Source of the DNA: Patiria pectinifera
Taxonomy: Eukaryota; Echinodermata; Asteroidea; Valvatida; Asterinidae
Assembly: GCA_029964075.1 (NCBI GenBank)
Contig: CM057129.1
Span: 23,427,430 to 23,491,429 of the forward strand
DNA length: 64,000 bases
Direction of reading: 5' to 3'
Shown: piece after piece, positions 1-44,545 of the stretch
How positions within the stretch are numbered: position 1 is the first letter of the stretch
Layout of the letters: each line of letters begins with the position of its first letter
Position numbers and translations under genes: made by a program
Notes under the pieces: generated by a model
Seen by the model: the letters and a program-made list of their open reading frames with translations, nothing else
Database searches by the model: none
Told to the model about the DNA's origin: nothing

Positions 1-322
1 AAAATAAGAACAGATAACAAATTTACATACGAAAAATGCAAAATTAAATCTAGTAAAAATATTCGCAATATTGTCAAGATGGCAGAAACAAAGAATAGTT
101 GAGCAAATAAATAAAAATTATAGTTTAAAAAACTTGTACGGTTGAAAATATAAGACAAACATTTAATCTACAAAAAAAGTTTACTAAAATAATTGAATTA
201 AAAAAAAACAGGTAAAGAGGGAAAGGAAGATAAAAATATATTTGTGTAAAATATCAAAAAAAGTAGAAGTTAATAACTCAAATGTTGCTCAGTGTCTGCA
301 TTATAAGTCTTCATGGACTATG

Positions 323-1245
323 GTAGTCTTAATTCAAGACTGGATTGGGTTTTTTATTGCCTTATTACAGCCCGTCCCTGAAAAGCATCCTGAAGCTGCT
401 GTGGCAGTCTTGGGAATATTGACAGCGTTACCCAGGAAATTCCGAGCATACAGGTACCAAACGTGTGTGCATTAGCTTTAATGCAGCGTGCGTGAGGTAT
501 GCTTGGAGTTTCTTGGGAAACACTGTTTCAGGATCTTTTTGATAGCAAACTGTGCCTCTGTGGTAGCCTAGGTTAGACGATGTCTTCATTGCCTCACTGC
601 CTTGCGACTGACGTCCAGGGTATTAATTCTACTATCATAGCGAAACATATTATAACACTTTTTTCCCCCAATATTTTTACCTGATGGAGAAAGCTGAAAT
701 TTTGTTTACATGTTCTTTGTGTGCGGAATTATGCATCCGCTTGGTTTAGAAAAGGTAAATATGTCATTGGGCGATGTCTTTACCGAAAGTAACCGCAGAT
801 CCAAGCTTTCGTCTAAGACATTCTATGAACTCCCCATGTGAAGGCTGACACGTACCGGGAGGTGCAACACGTTATAGGCCTGCTACAGTGTATGCCATGT
901 GTATGCGGAATGTGCATGCACGCCTGCGCGTAAGTCTTCACACGACATGTTCGTACTGAGGATGTTTTCGACGAAAGTGTGGATCTGCGGTTTATTTTGG
1001 TAAACACGTCGCTCAAGGACATCTTTACCTTTTCTTAACCAAGGAAGTAAACGAAATTTTAGCTTCTTCCATCAGGTGAAAATATGAAAAAAATGTGTTA
1101 AATTTTTTTTTCGCTATACAGCAGACGTTCATACCCTGGACTCCGTCGCGTGTCACAACTGACGTGTGTGGCAGCTTTATTGCGCTTGTCAGGGACCGGC
1201 TGTGTAAAGGAAATAAACCTATTTCTAGTCTTGAACAAAGACTAC
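323..1245. repeat. Long-arm foldback (inverted-repeat) element
   Basis: The left part (323 to about 815) and the right part (about 975-1245) are imperfect reverse complements. Matching landmarks are GGTAGTCTT against AAAGACTAC at the tips, the GTCCAGGGTAT stretch (612) against ATACCCTGGACTC (1132), TTTACCTGATGGA against TCCATCAGGTGAAAA, and GAAAAGGTAAA (749) against its complement at 1024. The centre is a short GC-richer stretch. No coding capacity is seen. It has the shape of a non-autonomous DNA transposon. It is repeated in the right arm at about 36650-37600. Confidence 0.6.
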
Positions 1246-2134
1246 ATGTAGGTCTCTGATAGATCCTGTACAATGTTATAAACCACTGTTTTTAAAATAA
1301 ATTTATTTAAACAAAATCTTAACCACAGAAAAAAAATGTGTGCAGCCCTTAGAGTGCAAACATATATCCATTGCCATATAAAGTCATTTTTCATGTAATG
1401 TACAATGTCCTTTTGTGTTGCGGAGTTTGATGAAAACCACCCCATATTTTTATGATCGATATTCTGTCAATACTTACAAGCTGACTGAGATGATGCAATG
1501 GAAACAAACAAAAATAAATAAATTTGGCTGGATAATCTGTCAAGTAAAAGCTTACTTAGGTGATGCAAGAGAAATAACAAAATATACAAATTTGCCTTGC
1601 TGCGTACATGTTTACTTAGTTCTAGTCATGTGTTAAAATTGTTTGTTCACAACACGTTGTATGTTTACTCTGATCCATCAGCGTATCTGGGTCAGTTACT
1701 GTACGTTGACTTTCTGATATAGTACCAAATCATGTGATACTTGTAATTCACCAGGCTTTATTGAATGATTTCAACAATGAAATGTAAACACAATGGCTTC
1801 ATCCAGTCTTGAATTTTAAACTCCTTCTGTTTAATTTTTTGTTTGTTTCCCAGTGCCCCCCAGTGCCCACGCAGTGCCCCCCAACCCCCAAAAAAACTAA
1901 ACCTGAAATTTGCTGCTTGCCAGGAAGTCTCTTTTTAAAGTATCATTTTGAGTAAATCAAGAAGAGGAATGTACATGTAGGTAGATGACTGCTTTTCCCT
2001 GTTGTTGGGTCCGCCCTTGGTGCCCCCTCATAACATGCTGGTGCCCCTTCCCCCCTCCCACTGAAAAAAACAACAACACGCTCGCTACGCCACTGCATTG
2101 CATACAAAGATATTGACAAATTGGAAAAAACGCC

Positions 2135-2215
2135 AACATAGGGCTGGATAGCTCAGTTGAAAGAGAACACTATGGTTTTATTCCCACTCCAGCCTCCTGT
2201 CAGTTTCTTTGTTCA
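2135..2215 (+). repeat. tRNA-headed short repeat (GGGCTGGATAGCTCAG family), degenerate
   Basis: AGGGCTGGATAGCTCAGTTG resembles a tRNA 5' half with a Pol III A-box. The B-box region is degenerate here. Related copies lie at 21109-21200, 42440-42540, 44444-44545 and 58347-58440, and in the right arm at 35640-35730. Confidence 0.5.
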
Positions 2216-4849
2216 AAGAGAGTAGTGGGTCACTGTTTGTGATGACAAACACAAAATGTGCCCTTGGACAGGATTGCTTATCTGGAGTCTCATGACTTGA
2301 TTTAATCCATTGTCAACTTGATGATAACAGCGCACATGACAAAGTTTCAAAGTGTTCCTGTCATTCCTTGGCCATTGAAGCGTAAATTTATCAATAAACT
2401 CACAACGACATCCTGTTTTGTGTGGTGACAGCTTGTGATTATGCAGTATCATTGTGTGGCGAGACGCTTTGGCTTAGGAATAAAAAAATAGGTTACTCGT
2501 TTTCCAGAATCATTCCTACTGCACTGCAATCAATCTTCTTTAAGAAAACAGGTGGTTTTTGTATTTTTTACTGTATATTGTTTCACAAGTACACCACAAA
2601 GTCGACTATAGTCACAAGTACAAAAATGACAAGTCAGTTCATAAGTAAACAACATTAGCAAACATCAAAAAACAAAACTATCATTTTTATATGAAATACC
2701 TTACTTGACTGTAAGTGAATAATAGTCTCAAGCATCCTGTGAAACCATGGCACCTGGTTTGCTGTCACTTTCAAGAAAAGTGGAAGTTTTGTATCAATTT
2801 TCAACAACGGTCGGCCGACCATCATTGGAAAAAAACCCAACTATTTTTCAAGTACTGTCCCCAATTTACCAAATTTAGTTAGTCCACATTTTGTTTGCAA
2901 TTGGTAATTCGCCTGACATCTGTAAATTGCTCCGTTTCATCTTAAGTAGGGTCAGGGAACCAGACTACAAGAACAGCATTTTTCCTTGATTTTCCAGCAT
3001 TTTTGAACAAACAAACCTTAAATAGATCAGTGTAAATAGTAATAATATTTGCTATAACATACTAACCCCCAAACCTATCCATTTCTGAAAATTACAGAAA
3101 TCACAAGTACCGGTATAGGGGATGAGCTACATACATGTATGTACATTTCGTGTGTATAACAACAGAACGGTTTTTGTGTTTTAAATTTCATGAATGCCAT
3201 TACAAATCGAAAAATACTGTACAAAGTTTTGTGTGGTTTGGAGTTTCCTCTTTTTTTTCTAAATTCCTAGTTGCTTTTTGTCATAATAAATGTGAATATG
3301 TTGTGAATTGACTTGGGACTGGATGAGTTGTGATTAACTTTCAATGGCTTGTGATGCTATAAAACGCTGGAGACTCAGTAAGTAGCGGTAATAGTGTTGG
3401 GTGGATCTGACAGGTATCAGGTTCTGCCCGAGTCCAACATGAGAAGCGGAGCTGCGAGTTCCTTTCAAGAACCGGGTACCCACTAAGCTCAGTTCCAGCT
3501 CTAAAAGAATCAGTGTCAGAATGAATTACCCATTCTCTGTACACAAACCCCGGAGCTTAGAACCAGCTCAATAAATAAGGCTGGGAGCAGTCACTGCAGC
3601 CAGTCAAAACATTGGAGAGGGAAAAACCACACACACTCACACACAGAGACAAACCACAGGACCGAGCCGTTCGCGGCCACGAGTCATAGAGTCATAGACC
3701 GGTTTTTTTTTTTTACCCTGGTTGGGGACTTCGGTTGAACTTGAGTGGAAATAAAAATCGGCCCTATACATCTGTACAGGTGATGATTCCTGACCTCGTT
3801 CAAATTATACATTTTGCTGGTCTACCAAGTTTGCCTGCATGTGTCCGAAGTATATTCAGAACCAGTGTGTAGTATTTGTTGGCTGGAACAATGCACATAT
3901 ATAACTGTGCATCTTCAAGGCCCGATCCAAAACACAATTATTTTTTTTTGGGGGGGGGGGCAAAACCTTTTTTTGTTCTCGGAAAATGCGGGTCCAAACA
4001 TTTTCTGCCCCATATTTAATATGAAAAGCAAGGGGAGGGGGCACTATGTATTACTTTTGTTGAGTTTTGTGGGTGATGTACCGGTAGCAGTGGCTGCCTT
4101 TTTGGCTACATCACTTAAAAATAAAAAGAAGGAAAAAAAAAGGTTTTTGTTTTGTTTGGGGGAGCATGGCCCCATTGGCCCCCCTCCCTCTCCCTCCCCC
4201 CCCCCCCTCCACCATCCGCAGTTGGGAAGTATAGCCTAGTGCAGTGAATCCACACAGTCGAAGATCGTCGGGGTGAATAGACTTTTATTACATGTCGACA
4301 ATACCATATATTAAAACCACAGAGCATGAACTTCACAAGTTGACACTGTTTATACTTTTTACATGCAATTTCAATTGTAGTTTTTATGTGTTTTTTTTCC
4401 ATTGCATTCCCTGGGAGCTGGTTCAACCGGCTGGAACTGCCCAACAAAATCTGTTCCAATTACATTATTCATGAGATGGAATTTGCATCGGGGTGATGTA
4501 ATTTGAGACTCATGAAATTTGAGATGCATTTGATGGTGTGTGTCACATGAAGGATGTGACGTCACACTTTCCCTGGCAGGAAAGTGGTACCGAGTACCTG
4601 CAAAGAGAGCTTATACCATTGCTTCTTCAGTTTATTTCTACTGTGCGCTCGTACAAGCCAGGATCTAGTGTCAAAACAAGACCGTCAAGTGTCCTATTGA
4701 TGCACATTTACAGTGTTTTTTAATCTGGTGTCAAAAACCACTGTTTCTTCACGTGCATGAAGTGGCACAGAAAGCTGTGCCTTTGGTTGCTGGAATCATG
4801 AAAAAGGAGAAACGCAAGATGCGGTAAGAGGAAGCAGATTTGTGCTGGC

Positions 4850-5050
4850 CCCAGAGGGCTAACCTTGTGTCCTTTTTGTAGCTATCTCATTGGCCGACTG
4901 ACTGACTGGATGTGGGTCGGTGAAGAGAACCGGGCAGTGCTGTTGTATAGGATTACCACGTAACACCAATAAATGGGCTAAATCCGGCCCATCGGGTAGA
5001 CCAGAAGCATGGAAAGATGTCCAGTGAATAGCCATTCTGAATCTATTAAA
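4850..5050. repeat. Dispersed repeat with GACTGACTG run
   Basis: A stretch containing CTGACTGACTGGATG, GAAGAGAACCGGGCAGTGC, TAGGATTACC and a terminal AATAGCCATTCTGAAT. It recurs at 9600-9825 and, in the opposite sense, around 13735-13835. The right arm carries its allelic copies (28245-28460 and 32815-33000). It is a SINE-like or low-copy interspersed repeat without coding capacity. Confidence 0.55.
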
Positions 5051-5216
5051 TGTTGTACTCTCTGCCTTTGACTGGTCTAAGGTTTGCCAGGCTCGCCTAT
5101 TCTTGTTTTCACCCGACTGGGATGATTGACGTTGCCGTTCACACCTTTTTCCATCATTTATGTGCATACAAGCTGTTTGTATAATTGCATTTCACCCCCT
5201 CCAGCTTCTATTCCTA

Positions 5217-5593
5217 ACCTTCCAAAATCCTCTTTGCAAAATGGAGGATTTTGCAGGATTGCGGCTCTGTTGCAAAACTGTGTGGCTGATTATGAAGGAT
5301 GCACTTTGTCAAGGTCTTGGGCTGGATCATGTGATGTTTATTCTCAGCCGTGCATAAATTTAAGTCTGGATTATACTTGAGATCCTCAGCACTGCTCCAG
5401 GATGTCACTGGCTCTGCCTCAACATATTGACAGTGATTGCTGGAGGAGTTTGCAGGATTGAGGCAGTGGTCATCCCTCCAAGGATCCCTCCAAGAAATAA
5501 TGGAGCATTTGTATGCAAAAACGTGGAGGCAGTTGGAAGATTTTGCAGGATTGAGGTTGCATCCTAGCAAAAATGTTTAAGGAGTTAGGGTTT
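5217..5593. repeat. Element with CCTCAATCCTGCAAAATCC motif and GTTAGGG end
   Basis: The right end reads GGAGTTAGGG followed by TTTAAA. Internally it carries GATTTTGCAGGATTGAGG repeats. It is the reverse-orientation relative of the element at 15208-15600 and is present in the right arm at about 32193-32580. The left end is poorly defined. Confidence 0.55.
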
Positions 5594-5708
5594 AAAAGAA
5601 GAATGTTATATTTTGTTGCTTTTTATTTATTGAGATATTCTTCTTGTTGTTTTTGTTCAGCAGAAAAACTAAGTTTCGCACTACCTTAAAACTACAGTTG
5701 CTCGAGCC

Positions 5709-5751
5709 GAACGTGCCTGAAACTGCTCCCTCCCCTGAAACTGCTCCCTCC
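5709..5751 (+). repeat. Tandem 18-bp duplication just upstream of the MFSD12 start codon
   Basis: GAAACTGCTCCCTCCCCT occurs twice, head to tail, ending a few bases before the ATG at 5758. The same doubled unit is present in the right arm (32036-32075), so it predates the split between the arms. It lies in the presumed 5'UTR. Any regulatory effect is unknown. Confidence 0.6.
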
Positions 5752-5757
5752 CCAAAA

Positions 5758-8700
5758 ATGGCGGAGGATGGAAAGACTCCAGCGTCGTTACGAGAAAGGA
5801 GGAAAACCATCACAGCGCCGGATGCTCCGTTTCTTCTGAGCTTCCCCCGCCGATTTGCCTACGGCGTCGGCCATGTTCTCAATGATCTGTGTGCCTCCAT
5901 GTGGTTCAGCTATCTTCTTGTCTTTTACCATAAAGTCCTATCCTTCAAGTAAGTATTTGAATATAAGTGAGAATTTAATTTTGGTTAGGCCCTAACCCTA
6001 ACCCCCTAGGCCCTTGTTGCTTACAACCATCCTCAATCCTCCAAAAATTTTCAACTCCGCCTAAATTTTTCAAAATTGTCAGACAGTCCTGCCTCAAAAT
6101 GCATTCATCCTCAATCCTCCAAAATCATCCTCATCCCAAAACTTTGCACTCGTGTTTAAATGAAGGATAACCAACGCCAAATCCTTCAAAATCATCAGAC
6201 AGTCCTGCCTCAAAATGCATTCATCCTCAATCCTCCAAAATCCTCTTGTGCTTCATTCACCATTCATCCTCAATCCTCCAAAATCCTCATGTGCTTCAAT
6301 CACCATTCATCCTCAATCCTCCAGAATCCTCATTTGATTCAATCACCATTCATCCTCAATCCTCTAGAATCCTCCAAACCGCCAGGAGGATTTTGGAGGA
6401 GTGAGGTGGGTTAGGGTTAGCTAAAGCAAGTTTTTTTGTTAAATAATAGAGTTGATAACTTTGATAAGTTTTGTTTTTTTATTCCCCGCAAACATGACAA
6501 AGAAAAAAAATCAAAACATAAATCAAAGAAAACTGTGAGTTTTGGGAAAATTTTGCCCCCAAGAAATGAACTGTTGTGTTAAGCCAAATGCATTTCCTTT
6601 AGTTTTTGAACTTTGCACTGTTGACTATGCAGACAATCTAAAAGGCATTGTTTTTATTTGGCCATTATCGTGGATTCAGAGTTCAAACAAAAAAGTCACG
6701 TCGGGAGAAATTTTTTCTTTCCCGACTTCTGTTTGCCACCAAGTATTTGACCTGAACATCAGATTCAGAAGCCACATAGTCAAAAAATTTGTTTAAATAT
6801 TCTGAACACTTGATGATAAAAAATTGGAAACGATTTCATTTATTCATTTCCTAAGCAAAAAGCAGTTGGGCATGTTCCAGGCCTTGTTGAAAAGTCAAAG
6901 TTTGAAAAAAAAAAAAAATTATATAATTTATATGGAAAAAACAGGTTTGTGCCTTGTAATGCTGATACCTGAAACCAGCAGGATATGATCTAGGATGTCA
7001 GACAGAGGAAATAGGATACCAGATCTTGTCACATGATAATACCTGAGATCAAATAGAACAAACACCAAATGGAACTTTCTGTACGATCTAGTCAATCAAA
7101 GAGGGAATGTGGTTTATGACTTGTGACCCACAACTTGGACCATGATAAACATGGTATCTGACTGGGAGTAAAAGTGAGTGTTAATTGTTGTCAATCAGAG
7201 CAGGAAATGAAGACTTTTTGTTCTGTATGTTCTCTGTAACAACACTCACTTAGGGGAGTGTGTGGCCTAGTGGTTAGGGCTCGTGACTCATGATCAGAGG
7301 GTCCGGGGTTCGAATCCAGCCGCTGGCCATATATTGTGTCCTTGGGCAAGGCAATTCACCCCCACTTGCCCCTCTCCACCCAGGAGTATAAATGGGTACC
7401 GGCATTAGCTGGGGAGTAACCTGCGATGGACTGGCATCCCATTCAGGGGGAGTAGAAATATTCTCAGTCGTTTCATGCCAAGGAAACTGGAGATAAACAC
7501 TGGCCTGATGAGCCACATTGGCTCGGGACAGACTTTACTACTACTACTATTGAAAAAACTATGTTCTCTGTTATGAATTTATCAAACTTCACCTTTTGAA
7601 GTTGAAAATGACTAGAATTGCTGTAAACTGCTTACTGACTGGATCGACCAGAAATACACTAGTAAAAAAAAAATTAAGAGGGGCGTTTCGATTTTAAAAA
7701 GTTGCTAGATTTATTTGGATTTAGCAGGATGCCTTATAAAGGAAAAATATGAAGGGAGTTGGAAGTAACCCTTAACCGAGAGCCTTCAAAATCTCTCAGC
7801 TTTAGAAGATTCTGTAGGATTTAGGAAGGCATATTCTGACATACGTGTATTTATACTTCATCTGGGGTTTATTTTCTTGGTACTTGGTAGAAAATCCTCC
7901 TAAATATCCCGCTAGGGAGATTAACAAGGAGGCCTCCAGAAGAGTGAATCAAATTATAATTTGAACGGCTTATCACATTGTTGTTGCCTATGGGCTCCGT
8001 GCACGTATCCCATCAACGGCCCGAAAAGGAGAGTTGGGGTTGACCTAGACTTGTTCCTGACCCATCCACTGCGTATTTCATATGTATCCAAAGTTATGAC
8101 TCAGAGACCATCGCAAGTTGAATTCGAATGTATTCGTACGCCGACGATGCCTGATGCTCACGCGGCCTGGAGACGCGATGGCTATAACTTTTGCACATTC
8201 AGGAAGTTGTACGTACTTCACGCGCGAACCAGTACAGTACAGTACGCATACGCTGTGTGTCCTGTCCAAGGAGCTCTCGATCAAAAGAGGTAAAAATGCG
8301 CCCTCTTTTGTTGGCGCACGGAGCCCATAGTTGTCACTTAAAGCAGCTGGCGAGAAAGAATCACGATATAAAAGATTGTTCAATACCTTGATGGTTCTTG
8401 GCAAGAACGAGTTTTCAAATGTTGATGTTGAGATATATGGGTTAACTCAAATTGTCCCTTTAAAGTTTAAGTACAAGTTTCAAAATCCTGTTTCCATACT
8501 TCCCCTCCTTACAGCAAGGATATTCTTCATAACTTGATTTACGCCAAATTTTTGAAGTTGACAAAACCTCTCCCTTTTTGTCATAAAACGTTTCCCTTAT
8601 AAACTGTCAGTTGAAGTAAATAGTCAGATGTGACCCTGTACGTCTGACCTTGTTGTCTAGCAACCAAGTCAAAATCCAGTTACCTGGAACAGAGCCAGCT

Positions 8701-11700
8701 GAATTCTACACCAGACCTTTCACCTGTGTTTTCAGGGAAACTATTGTGGAAGGTCAAACGAAACAGATGCTTTTATCCTTGAACACGTAGTTGGTGTACA
8801 TCACAAGCAAAAATTAATAAATTGTACACGAAATGCGGTGAAAGTCTTTGCCAATTTTGCATTGACATAATGTGGCCAATAATTAGAAACCCATGCAATT
8901 AATGAGAACTTTTTATAAAGGCATGATAGATCTCCATGGTGTTTGGGACACACATCAAATTGAAGCTTATTTCAACATCTTTCATTTGCTGTTGAATTTT
9001 TTGGGGTTACCCCTTGACTTTTAGGAGAAAATTCCATCCAAAATTGATCACCCTTGAAGTAGTCCTGAAGCCCATCATCATTTTGAAAAAAAATGATGCC
9101 TGTGCTCCATTGCAATTTTAGGCCCCAATTTCACCCGAAGTTCACAGAAATACGAGCTCACAGTCACGTTCACGGCATCCGCCTTTCTTTTTTACAAACC
9201 CCAAAGTTCATGGCCGGCCCACAAAATATTCTGATAGAAAAAAGAAATTGAGGGTATGCAAATCATGATATGGCCGGCGCAGGCAATTTCGGGCCTATTT
9301 ACTGGCCTGCAACCTGGGGCTCGATGCCCCTGAAAAATTGTAAGAATGTGGCTTGGGTTCCTGTTAAGTTGTGAATTTTGTAGGATTCCGGAGGGTTTCT
9401 CGCAACAATTTTTAAGGGGTTAGGGTTCATCAAGATGCGTCTAACCTCTATGAGAGATCAAAGAATGTTTTTAAAAATTTTGAAAACGATTTCAGTTTTT
9501 TGCTGGTCCCAGAGTGCCTGTCTAGTGTAGTGTGGAATATTCGAATATTAGAATTATCGATCAATGTCAATTTGAGTCAATTATTCAAATTGACTCGGCC
9601 CTAGCCTAGTGTCCTCTTTGTACAGATGATCTCACTGACTGACTTACTGACTGACTATCACTTCTGACGTAGACTGCATGGTTGTAGGCTGGTGAAGAGG
9701 GCCGGGCAGTGCTATTGTGTAGGATTACCCTGTATACCAATGAAAGTGCTAAATCAAGTTCATTGTGCAGACCAGATGTATAAAAATATTTCAAGTGAAT
9801 AGCCATTTTGAATAAACTGAATAGAACTATGTGCGCGCTGCACAGCCAAGTGGCGTCCTTCTTCCTATCTTTATTGTCAGTTGTGACTTACCTTTTCTAG
9901 ACTTGTCTAGTCTCGTGTTTTGTTAATTTTGTAAACTTTTTTTCTCCTCTGTCAAAAACAAGTAATGTGAATGCAGGTTACATGATGCTGATTGGGCAAG
10001 TCAGTGATGCCCTGTGCACGCCCCTGATTGGCTACGAGTCTGACAAATCGCTGGGCTGTCGCTATGGCAAACGGAAAACCTGGCATCTCTTAGGTAAGTC
10101 TCCAGTCACAGACGAGTGATTATGCAATTCATTATTGTTTTCAAGGGAAAAACTTTGCTGGCCAGTACAAAAAAAAACAAGACGACAAAAAAAATCAGTG
10201 CAACTCCGAAAAACTACATTTGGTCACTTTTGTGGTTATGGAAAACATCCATTTTGCTTCAATTAATGATGGAAATAATAAAAAATATATCTGTTCATCA
10301 TTTTCAGTTTATTTTCCAATATGAGGGGAAACACAACATATAATATGAGTTGTCTTGTGGTCAACCTTTTCATAAGTAGATATTTAGTTTGTGCAACCAG
10401 TTTGGATTATTAAAAACTGAAAATGCGGTTTAGTGATGATGCTGGTTGATAGTTTAAATTCAAGTCGTCAGAGTTGAAATTCACAAAATTGTGCAAAAAA
10501 ATTCCTTTTTGAAAGTGTCCTTAATTAGAGCTCTACCTTTCAAGGGAATAAATATGTGCTTTGCCGGTATTAAACAAGTGCATGTACACATGTACATGTA
10601 CCCCTACCTGGCTAGGGGCCTGGACAGGGACAATGGCCCTCGCCTTTTGCGAAACACCTCTCTAGCTATTTGGGTATGGTATGTGCCTCGCGCAGGTAGT
10701 ACTAAAAAATCTCCTTATATGGAGTACGCACGATGTATACAGGCTTTTCCTAGAATTGCTTGCTCCGGATTTGGCCACATGCCCCGGCCACATGCCCCAG
10801 CCACATTTTTCACAGTGCTCGTGGCCGAGGTTGACTAAGCTGCCCTGGTCACCTGACTAAAAGTCACAATCTAATTGGTCAAAGCGCACTGTTTGATTGA
10901 CGGCCATTGACGGCCGCTGTGCATGTTTTATACTGGGTTTGATGAAAGTGTAAAATGAGCTCAGCCTTGTCTAATTTTCAAACCGTCCACCAACAGGCAC
11001 AATCTGCGTCATGAGCAGTTTCGTCTTCATCTTCAGTCCCGTCATCGCCACAGAGCATGCCAGCCAGTGGGCGGAGCTGCTGTACTTCGCTCCGTTCATC
11101 GTCATCTTCCAGTTTGGTTGGGCGTCCACTCAGATCTCGCACCTGTCTCTCATCCCTGAACTGACCAATGTGGCTGCTGAGAGGGTGGCCCTTAATGCCA
11201 TTAGGTAATTCCTGTGTGATGGTCACAAATAGTCCCTATACTTCGTGTTTTTACTCGGACATAGCCTTGGTCAGTTGTCCGCAAACAACAGTAGCTATGC
11301 ACTGGCATGTACTGCACGAAATGCGAACAGCGACGTAGCGAAGGCTACAATATGCAAATCAGCCGGCGCTGAATGAACACCTTGGAACATTCGTGAGCCT
11401 TGGCTTGTGTCTTCTTAATTTTGTCGCTGGATTTCCAACGACGACCCCATATGAGAATAAAGAGGAGATTATTATTCAGTACTTGGTCGTGGAGGCTCAT
11501 TTTTTACATGGACAGAGAGCTAGATAGTGTGGCTACATTCTCCAACAAGTTTGGAGCGTGTGGACCAACTATAACTTCACTATATATATCCAGGGACAAA
11601 ATAACGATAATTGCCCGAAAAAGATAGGTCATGGCCCACAGATGTTCCACGGCATTCTTTCAGCCTCGTCTGATTTGCATATCGTTGCCCTAGTCACTTT

Positions 11701-23849: not shown

Positions 23850-24440
23850 AGGGCCCATGAAATGAAGTTTTCTTAGGGATTTTGTGCAACTTTCTACTCT
23901 TAAAAATATGAAAACTGTTTGACATTCCCTTTTTGGTTAATTTTATCATTGAAAAGTGCACCTCTTTATAAAACATGTTTAAAATGTTCGTGCTTTTCCG
24001 GACAAATGAGGCTGTGATTTCGTTTCAGGAAGACTCTTTTCAGTTAATGGGTTTTCTGTTCAAATTGTGAACCCAAATATTTGCTCATTGAAAATGTTAA
24101 TATTTTTTTTGTGAGAAAAGGTTGCTCATTTGCTCACTGCCATGTACTGACACAACAACGAATCGCCCCCCCCCCAAAAAAAAATGAAAATTGATGGCAG
24201 CAAAACATCCACAATTCTGGCAACATTTGATGCTGAAATAGCTGTAACATTTAGATTCTTGCGTGAAAATTCATCACATTTTTTCCTCATGTGAATATGG
24301 AAATTTGCATAAGCATAAAAACCAACAAGGCACCAAAATACCCTTGAAAATGGCAAAACGATAAATGAAACTAAAGCTAAATGGGATAAAGGTGCATTTT
24401 CAAGGATTGCATTAAAAAACATATTACATTGCATGGGCCC
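23850..24440. repeat. TTAA-flanked MITE with GGGCCCATG ends
   Basis: Tips are AGGGCCCATGAAATG and, inverted, GGGCCCATGCAATG, flanked by TTAA at 23846-23849 and 24441-24444. Internal segments (AAGTGCACCTCTTTAT against ATAAAGGTGCATTTTC) are also in inverted relation. It is about 590 bp and non-coding. Confidence 0.7.
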
Positions 24441-24888
24441 TTAATCATTAAACTGTTAATATTATCTACTCCTTGAGTGCAAGTTATGTTGTTGTTTTTT
24501 TGTTATCAACTTTCGTCATTATCACTCAGAAAATTCCTGTAATGTAGTTGTCCGCACAAATAAATTGCATTATGCCTGATTTGCTTTGATATTATCATAA
24601 TTACACAAATAAAGAGTTCCAATAAAGGCGATATTAAATTGCTTAGGTATGACATTTAGTCTTTTTTATCAGTTATGTTTGACTAAAGGTGCACGTATCT
24701 TCTGTGATATCTTTGAAATATGGATAATTGTGGCATTAATATATTCCTATTTTGCTTTACAAGTTACTGCCTGCAAATTCTTGAAAGATTAAAATTGAGA
24801 TTATATGTATTTTGGGAAAATAAAACAGTTCATTCAATGGTAGAAACAAGATCTTGGAGTTTGTTGTCAATTGTTGATGTCTTTAGTT

Positions 24889-25292
24889 TAGGCCAAAAAA
24901 AAAATAAGTCTCCGGTTTCTGGTATGGAGCTTGCCTTTTTGGGCAAGTATGGAGCTTGCCCAAAAAGTGGTGCGGCGACGCGGCTTTTTTTTTTTTTTTA
25001 CCTGATTTTTTTTGCCTCAAATGTCGGCTGATGACTGAAAATGGTGCCCGACTAGACTTAGTGCAAATACATGGGAGTCCAGAGAAGCCACATAAAGCTT
25101 ATTCTCGATCATAACCCCATCTAAAAACACGTTAAAATTGTGCAGCAACAGGATTCCAGTCAAACCAGTGAATTTGGCGGTTTTGAGACATCATCTTTCA
25201 TTGAAAAAAAAACCTTTTTCATTTTGCCAACGCGCATGGCTACGGCGACGCGCGCGCATACCAGAAACCGGAGACTTTTTTTTTTGGCCCTA
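24889..25292. repeat. MITE with GGCC-poly(A) ends
   Basis: The left end TAGGCCAAAAAAAAAATAAG continues with TCTCCGGTTTCTGGTAT. The right end is its inverted copy (CCAGAAACCGGAGAC, T-run, GGCCCTAAA). A related element starts at 63623 near the window end. Confidence 0.65.
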
Positions 25293-25593
25293 AATGAAAG
25301 GGTAAAATATACTTTACATATATTTCTAGCATCTAGACATCGTGGAGAACTCAAAAATGTCTTTGCACTTGCAGAATGGGAACATCTAAATAATGGGCTT
25401 TTCACACCCTTTCCTTTGTAGGCTGTGGTTTGTATTCACCCCTACCCCCCCCCCCCCAAAGCAACTTTGAACCATTAGTGACCCCTTCAAAATTTGAACC
25501 TTCAAAATATAAGTATGGGACTTTTGGTCCAGTGTGATTAAGCTATGTGTTTCTTTTCAATTATTTGTTATGGCCCAGTTAATTACTTTACCC

Positions 25594-26093
25594 NNNNNNN
25601 NNNNNNNNNNNNNNNNNNNNNNNNNNNNNNNNNNNNNNNNNNNNNNNNNNNNNNNNNNNNNNNNNNNNNNNNNNNNNNNNNNNNNNNNNNNNNNNNNNNN
25701 NNNNNNNNNNNNNNNNNNNNNNNNNNNNNNNNNNNNNNNNNNNNNNNNNNNNNNNNNNNNNNNNNNNNNNNNNNNNNNNNNNNNNNNNNNNNNNNNNNNN
25801 NNNNNNNNNNNNNNNNNNNNNNNNNNNNNNNNNNNNNNNNNNNNNNNNNNNNNNNNNNNNNNNNNNNNNNNNNNNNNNNNNNNNNNNNNNNNNNNNNNNN
25901 NNNNNNNNNNNNNNNNNNNNNNNNNNNNNNNNNNNNNNNNNNNNNNNNNNNNNNNNNNNNNNNNNNNNNNNNNNNNNNNNNNNNNNNNNNNNNNNNNNNN
26001 NNNNNNNNNNNNNNNNNNNNNNNNNNNNNNNNNNNNNNNNNNNNNNNNNNNNNNNNNNNNNNNNNNNNNNNNNNNNNNNNNNNNNNNNNNNNN
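25594..26093. other. Assembly gap, exactly 500 N
   Basis: A run of exactly 500 undetermined bases, typical of a fixed-size scaffold placeholder. Unique 3'-flank sequence of MFSD12 lies on its left and the interior of MFSD12 exon 4 in reverse orientation on its right. The distance and the join are therefore both uncertain. Apparent open frames across the N run are meaningless. Confidence 0.99.
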
Positions 26094-29000
26094 TGTTGGC
26101 AAACACAGTGAACGTATACCTGTGGATAAAAATAAAAAACATATTTCAAAATCAAGACAACCAGGGCAAATCCCACAGTCAAAATCAGTTTCGATTAGAC
26201 AAGGAATCTTGGCTGACAATGGCTGAGCAGGATGCAAAACCTCAACTTTCTGAACACCTCAGCAACATCACGAAAATTAAATGATCACTTCCTGATAGCC
26301 AAAAAAATGCATTTATTGCAATTAACAGGTACTGTACGAACCGCGTACAGCAACCTAAAGTGGCTAGGGCAACGATATGCAAATCAGACGATGCTGAAAG
26401 AACGCCGTGGAACATCTGTGGGCCATGACCTATCTTTTTCGGGCAATTATCGTTATTTTGTCCCTGGATATATATAGTGAAGTTATAGTTGGCCTGCACA
26501 CTCCAAACTTGTTGGAGAATGTAGCCACACTATCTAGCTCTCCGTCCATGTAAAAAAATGAGCCTCCACGACCAAGTACTGAATAATAATCTCCTCTTTA
26601 TTCTCATATGGGGTCGTCGTTGGAAATCCAGCGACAAAATAAAGAAGACACAAGCCAAGGCTCACGAATGTTCCAAAGTGTTCAATCAGCGCCAGCTGAT
26701 TTGCATATTGTAGCCTTCGCTACGTCGCTGTTCGCATTTCGTGCAGTACATGTCAGTGCATAGCTACTGTTGTTTGCAGACAACTGACCGAGGCTATGTC
26801 TGAGTAAAAACAAGAAGTATAGGGACTATTTGTGACCATCACACAGGAATTACCTAATGGCATTAAGGGCCACCCTCTCAGCAGCCACATTGGTCAGTTC
26901 AGGGATGAGAGACAGGTGCGAGATCTGAGTGGACGCCCAACCAAACTGGAAGATGACGATGAACGGAGCGAAGTACAGCAGCTCCGCCCACTGGCTGGCA
27001 TGCTCTGTGGCGATGACGGGACTGAAGATGAAGACGAAACTGCCCATGACGCAGATAGTGCCTGTTGGTGGACGGTTTGAAAATTAGACAAGGCTGAGCT
27101 CATTTGACGGTTTCATCAAACCCAGCACAGAACATGCACAGCGGCCGTCAATGGCCGTCAATCAAACAGTGCGCTTTGACCAATTAGATTGTGACTTTTA
27201 GTCAGGTGACCAGGGCAGCTTAGTCAACCTCGGCCACGAGCACTGTGAAAAATGTGGCTGGGGCATGTGGCCGGGGCATGTGGCCAAATCTGGAGCAAGC
27301 AATTCTAGGAAAAGCCTGTATACATCGCGCGTACTCCATATAACAAGATTTTTTAGTGCTACCTGCACGAGGCACATACCATAAACATATAGCTAGAGAG
27401 GTGTAACACCAAAGGCGAGGCCATTATCCCTGTCCAGGCCCCTAGCCAGGTAGGGGTACACGTACATGCACTTGTTTAATACTGGCAAAGCACATATTTA
27501 TTCCCTTGAAAGGTAGAGCTCTAATTAAGGACACTTTCAAAAAGGAATTTTTTTCGCACAAGTTTGTGAATTTCAACTCTGACGACTTGAATTCAAACTA
27601 TCAACCAGCATCATCACTAAACCGCATTTTCAGTTTTTAATAATCCAAACTGGTTGCACAAACTAAATATCTACATATGAAAAGGTTGACCACAAGACAA
27701 CTCATATTATATGTTGTGTTTCCCCTCATATTGGAAAATAAACTGAAAATGATGAACAGATTTATTTTTTATTATTTCCATCATTAATTGAAGCAAAATG
27801 GATGTTTTCCATAACCACAAGAGTGACCAAATGTAGTTTTTTCGGAGTTGCACTGATTTTTTTTTGTCGTCTTGTTTTTCTTGTACCGGCCAGCAAAGTT
27901 TTCCCATGAAAAAATAATGTATTGCATAATCATGCGTCTGCTGTGACTGGAAACTTACCTAAGAGATGCCAGGTTTTCCGTTTGCCGTAGCGACAGCCCA
28001 GCGATTTGTCAGACTCGTAGCCAATCAGGGGCGTGCACAGGGCATCACTGACTTGCCCAATCAGCATCATGTAACCTGCATTCACATTACTTGTTTTTGA
28101 CAGAGGAGAAAAAAAGTTTACAAAATTAACAAAACACGAGAATAGACAAGTCTAGTAAAGGTAAGTCACAACTGACAATAAAGATCTTAGGAAGAAGGAC
28201 GCCACTCGGCTGTGCAGCGCACACATAGTTCTACTCAGTTTATTCAAAATGGCTATTTACTTGAAATCTTTTTATACATCTGGTCTGCACAATGAACTTG
28301 ATTTAGCACTTTCATTGGTATACAGGGTAATCCTACACAATAGCACTGCCCGACCCTCTTCACCAGCCTACAACCATGCAGTCCAAGTCAGAAGTGATAG
28401 TCAGTCAGTAAGTCAGTCAGTGAGATCATCTGTACAAAGAGGACACTAGGCTAGGGCCGAGTCAATTTGAATAATTGACTCAAATTGACATTGATCGATA
28501 ATTCTAATATTCGAATATTCCGCACTACACTAGACAGGCACTCTGGGACCAGCAAAAAACTGAATTTGTTTTTAAAATTTTTAAAAAGGTTCTTTGTTCT
28601 CTCATGTAGTGGTTAGACGCATCTTGATGAACCCTAACCCTAAAAATTGTTGCGAGAAACCCTCCGGAATCCTACAAAATTCACAACTTGACAGGAACCC
28701 AAGCCACATTCTTACAATTTTTCAGGGGCATCGAGCCCCAGGTTGCAGGCCAGTAAATAGGCCCGAAACTGCCATATCATGATTTGCATGCCCTCAATTC
28801 TTTTTCTATCAGAACATTTTGTGGGCCATTAACAGATTAAGGGTTTGTAATGAGAAAGGCGGCCGCCGTGAACATGACTGTGAGCTCGTATTTCTGTGAA
28901 CTTTGGGTGAAATTGGGGCCTAAAATTGCAATGGAGCACAGGCATCTTTTTTTTTTTCAAAATGGTGATGGGCTTCAGGACTACTAAAAGGGTGATCAAT

Positions 29001-32000
29001 TTTGGATGGAATTTTCTCCTAAAAGTCAAGGGGTAACCCCAACAAATTCAACAGCAAATGAAAGATGTTGAAATAAGCTTCAATTTGATGTGTGTCTCAA
29101 ACACCTTGGAGAGTTGTGAGTATTTTCCTGATCTTGGGAATTGGGCGTATTTATCACAGGGGTCTACGGTAGTTTATATACTAGTCTAGTACTTCAAATA
29201 TATCATGCCTTTTAGAAAGTTCTCATTAATTGCATGGGTTTCTAATTATTGGCCACATTATATCAATGCAAAATTGGCAAAGACTTTTACTGCATTTCTT
29301 GTACAATTTATTAATTTTTGCTTGTGATGTACATGTACACCAACTACGTGTTCAAAGATAAAAGCATCTGTTTAGTTTGACCTTCCACAATAGTTTCCCT
29401 GAAAACACAGGTGAAAGGTCCATTGCAGAATTCAGCTGGCTCTGTTCCAGGTAACTGGATTTTGACTTGGTTGCTAGACAACAAGGTCAGACGTACAGGG
29501 TCACACCTGACTATTTACTTCAACTGACAGTTTATAAGGGAAACTTTTTGTGACAAAGAGAGAGAGGTTTTGTCAACTTCAAAAATTTGGTGTAAATCAA
29601 GTTATGAAGAATATCCTTGCTGTAAGGAGGGGAAGTATGGAAACAGGATTTTGAAACTTGTACTTAAACTTTAAAGGGACAATTCAAGTTAAACCATATA
29701 TCAACATCAACATTTGAACACTCGTTCTTGCCAAGAACCATCACGGTATTGAACAATCTTTTATATCATGATTCTTCCTCGCCAGCCGCTTTAAGTGACA
29801 ACTATGGGCTCCGTGCGCCAACAAAAGAGGGCGCATTTTTACCTCTTTTGATCGAGAGCTCCTTGGACAGGACACACAGCGTATGCGTACTGTACTGTAC
29901 TGGTTTGCGGGTGAAGTACGTACAACTTCCTGAATGTGCAAAAGTTATAGCCATCGCGTCTCCAGGCCGCGTGAGCATCAGGCATCGTCGGCGCACGAAT
30001 ACATTCGAATTCAACTTGCGATGGTCTCTGAGTCATAACTTTGGATACATATGAAATACGCAGTGGATGGGTCAGGAACAAGTCTAGGTCAACCCCAACT
30101 CTCCTTTTCGGGCCGTTGATGGGATACGTGCACGGAGCCCATAGGCAACAACAATGTGATAAGCCGTTCAAATTATAATTTGATTCACTCTTCTGGAGGC
30201 CTCCTTGTTAATCTCCCTAGCGAGATATTTAGGAGGATTTTTTACCAAGTACCAAATACATAAACCCCAAATGAAGTATAAATATGTTAGAATATGCCTT
30301 CCTAAATCCTACAGAATCTTCTAAAGCTGAGAGATTTTGAAGGCTCTCAGTTTAGGGTTAGTTCCAACTCCTTCACATTTTCCCTCAGGGCAGCCTGCTA
30401 AATCCACATAAATGTAACAACTTTTTTTAAAATCGAAACCCCCCCCCCCCTCCTAATTTTATTTTTGTTGGTGTATTTCTGGTCGATCCAGTCAGTAAGC
30501 CGTTTGCAGCTGTTTTAGTCATTTTCAACTTCCAAAGGTGAAGTTCGACGAATTCAAAACAGAGGATACAGAACAAAAAGGCTTCTTTTCCTGCTCTGAT
30601 TGACAACACCACTCACTTTTACTCCCAGTCAGATACAATGTTTATCTAGTCCTGGTTGTGGGTCACAAGTCATAAACCACATTCCCTCTTTGATTGACTA
30701 GATCGTACAGAAAGTTCCATTTGGTGTTTGTTCTATTTGATCTTAGGTATTATCATGTGACAAGATCTGGTATCCTATTTCCTCTGTCTGACATCCTAGA
30801 TCATATCCTGCGGTTTCAGGTATCGGCATTACAAGGCACAAACCTGTTTTTTCCATATAAATTATATAATTTTTTTTTTTTCCCAAACTTTGACTTTTCA
30901 ACAAGGCCTGGAACATGCCCAACTGCTTTTTGCTTAGGAAATGAATAAATGAAATCGTTTCCAATTTTGTATCATCAAGTGTTCAGAATATTTAAATAAA
31001 TTTTTTGACTATGTGGCTTCTGAATCTGATGTTAAGGTCACATACTTGGTGGCAAACAGAAGTCGGGAAAGAAAAAATTTCTGCCGACGTGACTTTTTTG
31101 TTTGAACTCTGAATCCATGATAATGGCCCAACAAAAACAATGCCTTTTAGATTGTCTGCATAGTCAACAGTGCAAAGTTCAAAACCTAAAGGAAATGCAT
31201 TTGGCTTAACACAACAGTTCATTTCTTGGGGGCAAAATTTTCCCAAAACTCACAGTTTTCTTTGATTTATGTTTTGATTTTTTTTCTTTGTCATGTTTGC
31301 GGGGAATAAAAAAACAAAACTTATCAAAGTTATCAACTCTATTATTTAACAAAAAAAACTTGCTTTAGCTAACCCTAACCCACCTCACTCCTCCAAAATC
31401 CTCCTGGCGGTTTGGAGGATTCTAGAGGATTGAGGATGAATGGTGATTGAATCAAATGAGGATTCTGGAGGATTGAGGATGAATGGTGATTGAAGCACAT
31501 GAGGATTTTGGAGGATTGAGGATGAATGGTGAATGAAGCACAAGAGGATTTTGGAGGATTGAGGATGAATGCATTTTGAGGCAGGACTGTCTGATGATTT
31601 TGAAGGATTTGGCGTTGGTTATCCTTCATTTAAACACGAGTGCAAAGTTTTGGGATGAGGAGGATTTTGGAGGATTGAGGATGAATGCATTTTGAGGCAG
31701 GACTGTCTGACAATTTTGAAAAATTTAGGCGGAGTTGAAAATTTTTAGAGGATTGAGGATGGTTGTAAGCAACAAGGGCCTAGGGGGTTAGGGTTAGGGC
31801 CTAACCAAAATTAAATTCTCACTTATATTCAAATACTTACTTGAAGGATAGGACTTTATGGTAGAAGACAAGAAGATAGCTGAACCACATGGAGGCACAC
31901 AGATCATTGAGAACATGGCCGACGCCGTAGGCAAATCGGCGGGGGAAGCTCAGAAGAAACGGAGCATCTGGCGCTGTGATGGTTTTCCTCCTTTCTCGTA

Positions 32001-32031
32001 ACGACGCTGGAGTCTTTCCATCCTCCGCCAT
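26094..32031 (-). CDS. MFSD12: MFSD12, second copy, exons 1-4 only, cut by the assembly gap
   Basis: This is the reverse-complement copy of the 5' part of the gene above. Exon 1 is 32031-31841 (191 bp), exon 2 is 28089-27959 (131 bp) and exon 3 is 27061-26854 (208 bp). Exon 4 starts at 26119 and is cut after 26 bp by the N run at 26093. Exon lengths and splice sites match the full copy exactly. Coding differences are few: silent changes in exons 1 and 2, and one Ser-to-Gly change in exon 3 (MSSFVF versus MGSFVF). The reading frame is open throughout, so it is not decayed. It is probably the other allele of the same gene, placed in inverted order by scaffolding. A true partial duplication is less likely because the break falls exactly at a 500-N gap. 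Confidence 0.9.
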
Positions 32032-35000
32032 TTTTGGGGAGGGAGCAGTTTCAGGGGAGGGAGCAGTTTCAGGCACGTTCGGCTCGAGCAACTGTAGTTT
32101 TAAGGTAGCGCGAAACTTAGTTTTTCTGCTGAACAAAAACAAAACGAAGAATATCTTAATAAATAAAACAACAAATAAACATTCGTCGTTTAACCCTTAC
32201 TCCCTAGGCATTTTTGCTAGGATGCAACCTCAATCCTGCAAAATCTTCCAACTGCCTCCACGTTTTTGCATACAAATCCTCCATTATTTCTGGGAGGGAT
32301 CCTTGGAGGGATGACCACTGCCTCAATCCTGTAAACTCCTCCAGCAATCACTGTCAATATGTTGAGGCAGAGCCAGTGACATCCTGGAGCAGTGCTGAGG
32401 ATCTCAAGTATAATCTAGACTTCAATTTATGCACGGCTGAGAATAAACATCACATGATCCAGCCCAAGACCTTGACAAAGTGCATCCTTCAAAAACAGCC
32501 ACATAGTTTTGCAACAGAGCCGCAATCCTGCAAAATCCTCCATTTTGCAAAGAGGATTTTTGAGGAATTGGGAAGGCTAGGGTAAGAAGCTGGAGGGGGT
32601 GAAATGCAATTATATAAACAGTTTGTATGCACATTAGTTTTTTTTGATGGATTTGGCACATTATAAATACACTGTATTATTATTATTATTATAAATGATG
32701 GAAAAAGGGGTGAACGGCAACGTCAATCATCCCAGTCGGGTGAAAACAAGAATAGGCGAGCCTAGCAAACCTAAGACCAGTCAAAGGCAGAGAGTACAAC
32801 ATTTAATAGATTCAGAATGGCTATTCACTGGACATCTTTCCATGCTTCTGGTCTACCCGATGGGCAGGATTTAGCCCATTTATTGGTGTTACGTGGTAAT
32901 CCTATACAACAGCACTGCCCGGTTCTCTTCACCGACCCACATCCAGTCAGTCAGTCGGCCAATGAGATAGCTACAAAAAGGACACAAGGTTAGCCCTCTG
33001 GGGCCAGCACAAATCTGCTTCCTCTTACCGCATCTTGCGTTTCTCCTTTTTCATGATTCCAGCAACCAAAGGCACAGCTTTCTGTGCCACTTCATGCACG
33101 TGAAGAAACAGTGGTTTTTGACACCAGATTAAAAAACACTGTAAATGTGCATCAATAGGACACTTGACGGTCTTGTTTTGACACTAGATCCTGGCTTGTA
33201 CGAGCGCACAGTAGAAATAAACTGAAGAAGCAATGGTATAAGCTCTCTTTGCAGGTACTCGGTACCACTTTCCTGCCAGGGAAAGTGTCACGTCACATCC
33301 TTCATGTGACACACACCATCAAATGCATCTCAAATTTCATGAATCTCAAATTACATCACCCCGATGCAAATTCCATCTCATGAATAATGTAATAAGAACA
33401 GACTTTTGTTGGGCAGTTCCAGCTGGTTGAACCAGCTCCCAGAAAATGCAATGAAAAAAAACAAACATAAAAAAACTACAATTGAAATTGAAATTGCATT
33501 GTAAAAAGTATAAACTGTGTCAATTTGTGAAGTTCATGCTCTGTGGTTTTCATATATGGTATTATCGACGTGTAATGAAAGTCTATTCACCCCGACGATC
33601 GTCGACTGTGTGGATTCACTGTACTGGGCTATATTTTCCAACGGCGGATCGGGGGGGGGGGGAGGGGGGGCCAATGGGGCCATGCTCCCCCAAACAAAAC
33701 AAAACAAAAAAACCTTTTTTTTTTCTTCTTTTTATTTTTAAGTGATGTACCCAAAAAGGCAGCCACTGCCACCATTACATCACCCACAAAACTCAACAAA
33801 AGTAATACATAGCCCCCCCCCCCCCCTTGCTTTTTATATATTAAATATGGGGCGGAAAATTTTGGAACCACATTTTCCGGGAACAAAAAAAGATTTTGGC
33901 CCCCCCCCCCTCCCCCAAAACAAAAAATAATTGTGTTCTGGATCGGGCCTTGAACATGCACAGTTGTTTGCATTGTTCCAGCCAACAAATACTACACACT
34001 GGTTCTGAATATACTTCGGACACATGCAGGCAAACTTGGTAGACCAGCAAAATGTATAATTTGAACGAGGTCAGGAATCATCACCTGTACAGATGTATAG
34101 GGCCGATTTTTATTTCCACTCAAGTTCAACCGAAGTCCCCAAACAGGGTTTAAAGAAAACGGTCTGTGACTCTATGACTCGTGGCCGCGAAGGGCTCGGC
34201 CGTGTGGTTTGTCTCTGTGTGTGAGTCTGTGTGGTTTTTGCCCTCTCCAATGTTTTGACTGGCTGCAGCGACTGGTCCCAGCCTTATTTATTGAGCTGGT
34301 TCTAAGCTCCGGGGTTTGTGTACAGAGAATGGGTAATTCATTCTGACACTGATTCTTTTAGAGCTGGAACTGAGCTTAGTGGGTACCCGGTTCTTGAAAG
34401 GAACTCGCAGCTCCGCTTCTCATGTTGGACTCGGGCAGAACCTGATACCTGTCAGATCCGCCCAACACTATTACCGCTACTTACTGAGTCTCCAGCGTTT
34501 TATAGCATCACAAGCCATTGAAAGTTAATCACAACTCATCCAGTCCCAAGTCAATTCACAACATATTCACATTTATTATGACAAAAAGCAACTAGGAATT
34601 TAGAAAAAAAAGAGGAAACTCCAAACCACACAAAACTTTGTACAGTATTTTTCGATTTGTAATGGCATTCATGAAATTTAAAACACAAAAACCGTTCTGT
34701 TGTTATACACACGAAATGTACATACATGTATGTAGCTCATCCCCTATACCGGTACTTGTGATTTCTGTAATTTTCAGAAATGGATAGGTTTGGGGGTTAG
34801 TATGTTATAGCAAATATTATTACTATTTACACTGATCTATTTAAGGTTTGTTTGTTCAAAAATGCTGGAAAATCAAGGAAAAATGCTGTTCTTGTAGTCT
34901 GGTTCCCTGACCCTACTTAAGATGAAACGGAGCAATTTACAGATGTCAGGCGAATTACCAATTGCAAACAAAATGTGGACTAACTAAATTTGGTAAATTG

Positions 35001-37917
35001 GGGACAGTACTTGAAAAAAAGTTGGGTTTTTTCCAATGATGGTCGGCCGACCGTTGTTAAAAATTGATACAAAACTTCCACTTTTCTTGAAAGTGACAGC
35101 AAACCAGGTGCCATGGTTTCACAGGATGCTTGAGACTATTATTCACTTACAGTCAAGTAAGGTATTTCATATAAAAATGATAGTTTTGTTTTTTGATGTT
35201 TGCTAATGTTGTTTACTTATGAACTGACTTGTCATTTTTGTACTTGTGACTATAGTCGACTTTGTGGTGTACTTGTGAAACAATATACAGTAACAAATAC
35301 AAAAACCACCTGTTTTCTTAAAGAAGATTGATTGCAGTGCAGTAGGAATGATTCTGGAAAACGAGTAACCTATTTTTTTTATTCCTAAGCCAAAGCGTCT
35401 CGCCACACAATGAATGCATAATCACAAGCTGTCACCACACAAAACAGGATGTCGTTGTGAGTTTATTGATAAATTTACGCTTCAATGGCCAAGGAATGAC
35501 AGGAACACTTTGAAACTTTGTCATGTGCGCTGTTATCATCAAGTTGACAATGGATTAAATCAAGTCATGAGACTCCAGATAAGCAATCCTGTCCAAGGGC
35601 ACATTTTGTGTTTATCATCACAAACAGTGACCCACTACTCTCTTTGAACAAAGATACTGACTGGAGGCTGGAGTGGGAATAAAACCATAGTGTTCTCTAC
35701 CAACTGAGCTATCCAGCCCTATGTTGGCGGTTTTTCCAATTTGTTAATATCTTTGTATGCAATGCAGTGGCATAGCGAGCGTTGGGGTTTTTTTCAGGGG
35801 GAGGGGGGAAGGGGCACCAGCATGTTATGAGGGGGCACCAAGGGCGGACCCAACAACAGGGAAAAGCAGTCATCTACCTACATGTACATTCCTCTTCTTG
35901 ATTTACTCAAAATGATACTTTAAAAAGAGACTTCCTGGCAAGCAGCAAATTTCAGGTTTAGTTTGTTTTTTTGGGGGGTTTGGGGGGCACTGCGTGCCAC
36001 GCAGTGCCCAAACCCCAGTGCATGGGCACTGGGGGGAGCACTGGGAAACAAACAAAAAAATTAAACAGAAGGAGTTTAAAATTCAAGACTGGATGAAGTC
36101 ATTGTGTTTACATTTCATTGTTGAAATCATTCAATAAAGCCTGGTGAATTACAAGTATCACATGATTTGGTACTATATCAGAAAGTCAACGTACAGTAAC
36201 TGACCCAGATACGCTGATGGATCAGAGTAAACATACAACGTGTTGTGAACAAACAATTTTAACACATGACTAGAACTAAGTAAACATGTACGCAGCAAGG
36301 CAAATTTGTATATTTTGTTATTTCTCTTGCATCACCTAAGTAAGCTTTTACTTGAAATATTATCGAGCCAAATTTATTTATTTTTGTTTGTTTCCGTTGC
36401 ATCATCTCAGTCAGCTTGTATCGACAGAATATCGATCATAAAAAAATGGGGTGGTTTTTATCAAACTCCGCAACACAAAAAGACATTGTACATTTCATGA
36501 AAAATGACTTAAAAATGGCAATGGATATATGTTTGCACTCTAAGGGCTGCATACATTTTTTTCTGTGGTTAAGATTTTGTTTAAATAAATTTATTTTAAA
36601 AACAGTGGTTTATAACATTGTACAGGATCTATCAGAGACCTAGTCTTTGTTCAAGACTGGATATAGATTTATTCCCTAAATATACAGCCGGCTCCTGACA
36701 AGCGCAATAAAGCTACCACAGCGGTAGACCAGGGTGGACTCCTCCTTTGTGTACAGGCGACGGAGTCCAGGGTATGAATGTCTGCTGCCATAGTGAAAAA
36801 AAAATTTAACACATTTTTTTCATATTTTCACCTGATGGAGGAAGCTGAAATTTTGTTTATTTCCTTGTGTCCAGAATTTTGCATACGTTTGGTTAAGAAA
36901 AGGTAAATATGTCCTTGGGCAACGTGTTTACCAAAATAAACCGCAGATCCACACTTTCGTCGAAAACATCCTCAGTACGAACATGTCGTGTGAAGACTTA
37001 TGCGCGCGCGTGCATGCACGTCCCGCATAAACATGGCATAGTTGACCTAACTGTACGTGTTGCAAGGCCACATAAGTCTCCACATGGGGAGTTCGTAGAA
37101 TGTCTTCGACGAAAGCTTGGATCTGCGGTTTACTTTCGGTAAACACATCGCCCAATGACATATTTACAAGTTTCTAAACCAAGCGGATGCATAATTCCGC
37201 ACACAAAGAACATGTAAACAAAATTTCAGCTTTCGCCATCAGGTAAAAATATTGGGGAAAAAAAATGTTATAATATGTTTCGCTATGGTAGTAGAATTAA
37301 TACCCTGGACGTCAGTCGCAAGGCAGTGAGGCAATGAAGACATCGTCCAACCTAGGCTATCACAGAGGCGCAGTTTGCTATCAAAAAGATCCTGAAACAG
37401 TGTTTCCCAAGAAACTCCAAGCATACCTCACGCACGCTGCATTAAAGCTAATGCACACACGTTTGGTATGCTCGGAATTTCCTGGGTAACGCTGTCAATA
37501 TTCCCAAGACTGCCACAGCAGCTTCAGGATGCTTTTCAGGGACGGGCTGTAATAAGGCAATAAAAAACCCAATCCAGTCTTGAATTAAGACTACCATAGT
37601 CCATGAAGACTTATAATGCAGACACTGAGCAACATTTGAGTTATTAACTTCTACTTTTTTTGATATTTTACACAAATATATTTTTATCTTCCTTTCCCTC
37701 TTTACCTGTTTTTTTTTAATTCAATTATTTTAGTAAACTTTTTTTGTAGATTAAACGTTTGTCTTATATTTTCAACCGTACAAGTTTTTTAAACTATAAT
37801 TTGTATTTATTTGCTCAACTATTCTTTGTTTCTGCCATCTTGACAATATTGCGAATATTTTTACTAGATTTAATTTTGCATTTTTCGTATGTAAATTTGT
37901 TATCTGTTCTTATTTTT
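26094..37917 (-). repeat. Right arm of the ~12-kb inverted duplication
   Basis: Reverse complement of 1-11962. It differs from the left arm by lacking the SINE at 7238-7571. It carries about 100 bp extra near 29107-29203 and a short ATT microsatellite stretch near 32640-32695 that the left arm lacks. It starts abruptly at the gap edge (26094). Its far end in this window is set only by where the left arm leaves the window. Confidence 0.93.
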
Positions 37918-42439: not shown

Positions 42440-42540
42440 TCAAAGTTGAACAAAATATTAACTGGAGCGGGGTTTGAACCTGCAACCTCCAGATTGCCAT
42501 TGCAGTGCTCTACCAACTGAGCTATCCAGCCCCATGTTGG
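42440..42540 (-). repeat. tRNA-headed short repeat, reverse orientation
   Basis: On the - strand it reads GCCAACATGGGGCTGGATAG, CTCAGTTGGTAGAGCAC, GGTTCAAACCCCGCTCCAGT, then a T-rich tail. The family is shared with 44444-44545. Confidence 0.65.
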
Positions 42541-44443: not shown

Positions 44444-44545
44444 TTAGGGCTGGATAGATCAGTTGGTTAGAGCACCAGAACGGTAAACTAGAGGTCGCAG
44501 GTTCAAACCCTACTCCAGTCAATTTTTTTGTTCAATTTAAAAAAA
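44444..44545 (+). repeat. tRNA-headed short repeat
   Basis: CCGCCAACTTAGGGCTGGAT, GATCAGTTGGTTAGAGCACC, GGTTCAAACCC, then CCAGTCAATTTTTTTGTTCA. The B-box is perfect and the tail is the one shared by the family. Confidence 0.65.

Follow-up and report, generated by a model that had tools for sequence, protein, structure and literature searches.

Genes and repeats of the locus

The window, that is, the whole stretch of 64,000 nucleotides analysed here, contains a single run of N, a placeholder of exactly 500 letters that separates the end of one contig (contig A) from the start of another (contig B). Contig A carries a complete MFSD12-like gene, the 11 exons of which have GT-AG borders and encode a protein of 527 aa in a single open frame; for the start of exon 9, one of two possible AG sites was picked. 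Contig B begins with a part of such a gene on the opposite strand (Table 1). The name MFSD12 is that of the first-pass annotation; it is putative and agrees with the human protein in general features.

A Pfam scan places the 527-aa protein in the MFS family, with MFS_2 at 110 bits (cut-off 27) and MFS_1 at 73.7 bits (cut-off 33.4). Matches in the PDB are weaker than those in Pfam, the best being the melibiose carrier (melibiose permease, E 1.5e-6), with MFSD2A at E 1.4e-5; exon 3 alone has no match in the PDB up to E 10. Among genome contigs, 12 stretches fit the pattern of the 527-aa protein, and among viral contigs 27 fit that of exon 3, none of either set being confirmed as relatives.

Further along contig B, one long reading frame at 46237-46992 encodes a C-type lectin domain (Lectin_C, 23.7 bits, cut-off 22.6), followed by a PAN-like stretch that scores just under its cut-off (PAN_1, 20.9 bits, cut-off 21.4). 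A SNAPC3 exon lies at 57632-58006 (52.8 bits, cut-off 23.8) and is flanked by two copies of a three-copy repeat of about 530 bp (56490-57042 and 59711-60241), which are inverted, approximately 2.7 kb apart and 89% identical (93% without gaps); the third copy lies at 44807-45324. On the minus strand, 58064-58109 strongly matches the histone 3' UTR stem-loop of Rfam (40.5 bits, gathering 34), but visual inspection of that strand over 58050-58900, in all three frames, showed no histone frame. The stem-loop is flanked by sequence that reads like a retroelement end, and the motifs CTGACGA and GAAACGTC beside it resemble those of a hammerhead ribozyme; this candidate near 58.1 kb, suggested by eye, was dropped, as Rfam gave nothing for it at E values up to 10. 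Rfam also matches tRNA at 42459-42531 (minus strand, 46.6 bits) and 44448-44521 (plus strand, 39.1 bits), the former being the only one called by ARAGORN, as tRNA-Ala(GGC). Both may be either tRNA genes or the heads of tRNA-derived repeats.

Table 1. Features of the locus, with positions given in the window.
Feature	Position	Strand	Remarks
Left arm, in contig A	1..11962	+	self-comparison and global alignment; outer end beyond the window
Right arm, start of contig B	26094..37917	-	96.4% ungapped identity to the left arm in reverse complement
Blocks of the inverted match	left 1-5161, 5160-7228, 7566-8931, 8931-11962; right 37916 down to 26094		self-comparison
Complete MFSD12-like gene, contig A	5758..21423	+	11 exons, 527 aa; MFS_2
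Exons 1-6, contig A	5758-5948, 9963-10093, 10997-11204, 11937-12045, 12977-13165, 14507-14599	+
Exons 7-11, contig A	15889-15981, 17658-17825, 19296-19387, 19960-20090, 21245-21423	+
Partial MFSD12-like gene, contig B	32031-31841, 28089-27959, 27061-26854, 26119-26094 (span 26094..32031)	-	exons 1-3 complete, plus 26 bp of exon 4
SINE-like insert	7226..7571	+	body 7238-7559 between 12-bp direct repeats 7226-7237 and 7560-7571
Placeholder gap between contigs	25594..26093	.	exactly 500 N
Remainder of contig A	11963..25593	+	shares with 37918-64000 only three matches of dispersed repeats
Remainder of contig B	37918..64000	.	predicted counterpart of the sequence before window base 1

Two inverted arms and the gap between them

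Self-comparison of the window confirms that an inverted duplication is present in the assembled sequence. The match falls into four blocks of 93.5-96.6% identity, and global alignment of the left arm with the reverse complement of the right arm runs from end to end, with 11,112 matches, 409 mismatches (228 transitions and 181 transversions) and 65 gaps. Without gaps, the arms are 96.4% identical, and mismatches amount to 3.55% of the 11,521 ungapped columns. In the same self-comparison (alignments of more than 150 columns), the other repeats of the window reach at most 847 columns and are 66-89% identical; therefore, the 12-kb match differs from them in kind and is not due to chance. The first-pass annotation, which had read 1-11962 and 26094-37917 as reverse complements of each other, is borne out by both comparisons, whereas the 12 kb that it gave as the size is a minimum that the window edge dictates, since homology in the left arm extends to window base 1 (with 2 differences in 494 columns over its first 500 bp) and position 37917 is set by the edge of the window.

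Two further repeats lie within the arms. A 43-bp tandem repeat of 3.7 copies is present in both (6218-6374 and 31415-31571), where the arms differ at 2 of 500 columns. A foldback-type repeat at 36757-37319 (and 604-1149) also occurs in both and lies in one of their most divergent parts (about 8%); like the foldback-type sequences at 14747-15568, 15992-16434 and 58712-58865, it is 66-80% identical to its own reverse complement.

At its inner end, the right arm opens at 26094, the first base past the 500 N, and this base lies inside exon 4, just as had been noted from the sequence at first. Exons 1-3 measure 191, 131 and 208 bp in both copies and align without gaps, with conserved splice sites. 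Of exon 4, 26 of 109 bases are present on the right. The gene copy described as truncated does stop in exon 4 as assembled, but it runs there into the placeholder gap, and its truncation may belong to the assembly rather than to the genome. On the other side, contig A continues for 13.6 kb past the homology without a counterpart. A plain end-overlap of the two contigs is ruled out, as 11963-25593 and 37918-64000 share only three repeat pieces (E 1e-10).

As assembled, the sequence does show inverted arms, and assemblies tend to break near inverted repeats. One reading is a real inverted duplication, in which paralogues on one chromosome, with arms of at least 12 kb lying approximately 14 kb apart, would have become a mosaic via gene conversion, and the inner end of the right copy would be hidden in the gap. 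The reading frames of both copies, which are intact as far as visible, are in line with it. No duplication breakpoint is seen within contiguous sequence, one end being the gap and the other lying beyond the window. A point against this reading is that a real duplication would require the gap to coincide exactly with the visible limit of the homology, with contig A continuing beyond that limit without a counterpart.

Coding change and insertion dimorphism

Between the two copies, 6 of 556 coding bases differ, and only one of these changes is a replacement (Ser114Gly). The corresponding dN is 0.0024 and dS is 0.039, the latter close to the overall mismatch level of 3.55%. Neutral evolution of one of the copies from the split onwards would predict 6.4-7.5 replacements in the 425 non-synonymous sites, against the one seen (P about 0.005-0.013). 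This deficit bears on the possibility that the right copy is a real, truncated and non-functional one (exons 1-4) that has drifted since a duplication. Its end in exon 4 as assembled is what such a copy would show, yet that stop coincides with the contig end, and together with the replacement deficit this disfavours a long-dead copy, which we regard as very unlikely.

The arms also differ by a SINE-like insertion. The insert and its 12-bp target-site duplication are present in the left arm and absent from the right arm near 30566, where a single, slightly altered target sequence forms an empty site. The tRNA-like head of the insert was judged by eye and is reported by neither ARAGORN nor Rfam at gathering. 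The differences between the arms, namely silent-biased coding change with one Ser/Gly replacement, 65 gaps and the presence or absence of a SINE-like insert, appear to be of the allelic type that the first-pass annotation had ascribed to them.

Foldback artefacts, too, give inverted copies, and a chimera of this kind could arise from one molecule through a missing adapter or a template switch. Its arms would match except for read error, whereas those seen here are set apart by 409 substitutions, 65 gaps and the dimorphic insertion, and their coding changes fall preferentially at silent sites. Because of these differences, an origin of both arms from the same molecule is practically excluded.

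Divergence between the arms is a mosaic

Under random mating, alleles should show a geometric type of local divergence; gene conversion between real paralogues also produces mosaics. Across the 24 bins of 500 bp in the arm alignment, divergence ranges from 0.2 to 8.2%. The variance/mean ratio of the differences is 5.72, 6.92 and 9.57 at bins of 100, 250 and 500 bp, respectively, against maxima of 1.4, 1.75 and 2.3 in 1,000 shuffles, and the longest identical run between the arms is 558 bp, against at most 327 bp in 300 shuffles. A geometric distribution fits better than a Poisson distribution by 108, 120, 103 and 78 log-likelihood units at 50, 100, 200 and 500 bp. When columns within 8 bp of gaps are dropped, which lowers the divergence to 2.99%, the geometric fit is still better by 73, 73, 58 and 50 units at the same bin sizes.

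Five old repeat pairs of the window served as an in-window control. At 50 bp, their variance/mean ratios are 0.59, 2.27, 2.13, 1.64 and 1.24, compared with 3.86 for the arms; when the arms are cut into 188 overlapping pieces of 550 bp, however, the median ratio is only 2.0. Therefore, short-scale dispersion alone does not discriminate, and over-dispersion at 50 bp was dropped as a sole proof of alleles. Part of the short-scale clumping may have causes other than allelism. Gene conversion between real arms can also yield a mosaic and in this respect counts against an allelic origin, the alternation of near-identical and divergent blocks being what patchy conversion would leave. We consider a real inverted duplication improbable. 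Also improbable is a genuine near-palindrome with at least 12 kb per arm and two working MFSD12-like genes, in which the 0.2-8.2% mosaic would reflect repeated conversion between the arms in an outbred animal.

The level of divergence can be set beside that of alleles in other animals. Lancelet alleles are described as having 4.39% SNPs and 0.98% small indels with a geometric local distribution (Huang et al. 2014, PMC4284660), and a heterozygosity of 3.2% is given for an oyster (PMC7992393). The divergence of the arms falls within the range known from animals.

Probable placement of a second haplotype in inverted orientation

Taken together, the gap between the copies, the homology that reaches the contig end, the silent bias, the insertion dimorphism and the mosaic support the haplotype misjoin that had been called probable from a first reading. 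We propose that the contig at 26094-64000 very probably represents the second haplotype, scaffolded next to its homologue, contig A, in inverted orientation. The window would then join two contigs that represent two haplotypes of one locus: contig A, ending at 25593, would bear the whole MFSD12-like gene, and contig B, starting at 26094, would be the other allele, with its start in exon 4 reflecting a chance contig end. A divergence of approximately 3.5%, together with the indels, may have kept the assembler from collapsing the alleles, and the scaffolder, seeing both at the same place, would have put contig B next to contig A the wrong way round, with a placeholder gap between the two.

Turned round, contig B would overlap 1-11962 and extend leftwards, whereas contig A would extend rightwards. 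The union of the two would measure 51,538 bp and contain one transporter gene. The true locus would thus span about 51.5 kb and contain a single 11-exon MFSD12-like gene, 5' of which the lectin and SNAPC3 genes would lie; the additional half-gene of the assembly is probably spurious. If contig B is the other allele of the contig A locus, the sequence before window base 1 should therefore match 37918-64000 reversed.

Implications and comparison with known systems

The number of MFSD12-like genes, the order of genes on the two sides of the gap and any inversion called here are probably in error, which makes the result a practical warning about the assembly rather than new biology. Allele-like signs, such as silent-biased change, an insertion with an empty site and a geometric pattern of local divergence, make it possible to recognise a likely false duplication in the sequence of one assembly, without reads.

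The arms of young palindromes are often more than 99% alike. Inverted arms of several kb that carry gene copies are shared with real sex-chromosome palindromes undergoing gene conversion (PMC7023750, PMC5591018). Unlike in real palindromes, no breakpoint or spacer junction is seen here, and a gap abuts one arm.

Several reports bear on the proposed misplacement. Hi-C scaffolding of fragmented assemblies is stated to produce orientation errors frequently (PMC6719893), and contigs set in the wrong orientation within a scaffold are what we propose for this locus. In one assembly built with 3D-DNA, contigs were joined by 500 Ns (PMC10320752), a joint of the same length as that seen here, which does not identify the scaffolding method. 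High haplotype divergence is further reported to defeat alignment-based purging of haplotigs (PMC12376112).

The closest likeness is to the false heterotype duplications described for the Vertebrate Genomes Project, which are marked by half depth, a gap between the copies, discordant read pairs and one-copy k-mers (Ko et al. 2022, PMC9516828). Among these four marks, the gap is the one assessed from sequence alone, and it is present, separating the duplicated pair on one scaffold and abutting the right arm. That the copies differ as alleles do is a sign of our own, outside those four marks, and gene conversion could mimic its mosaic part. Distinct from those cases, the second copy is inverted here, and words beginning with "inver" or "orientation" occur 0 times in the main text of PMC9516828. 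As in those cases, two divergent alleles would here have been retained as if they were paralogues, on the same scaffold and on either side of a gap, and would leave a false partial gene copy (PMC9516828).
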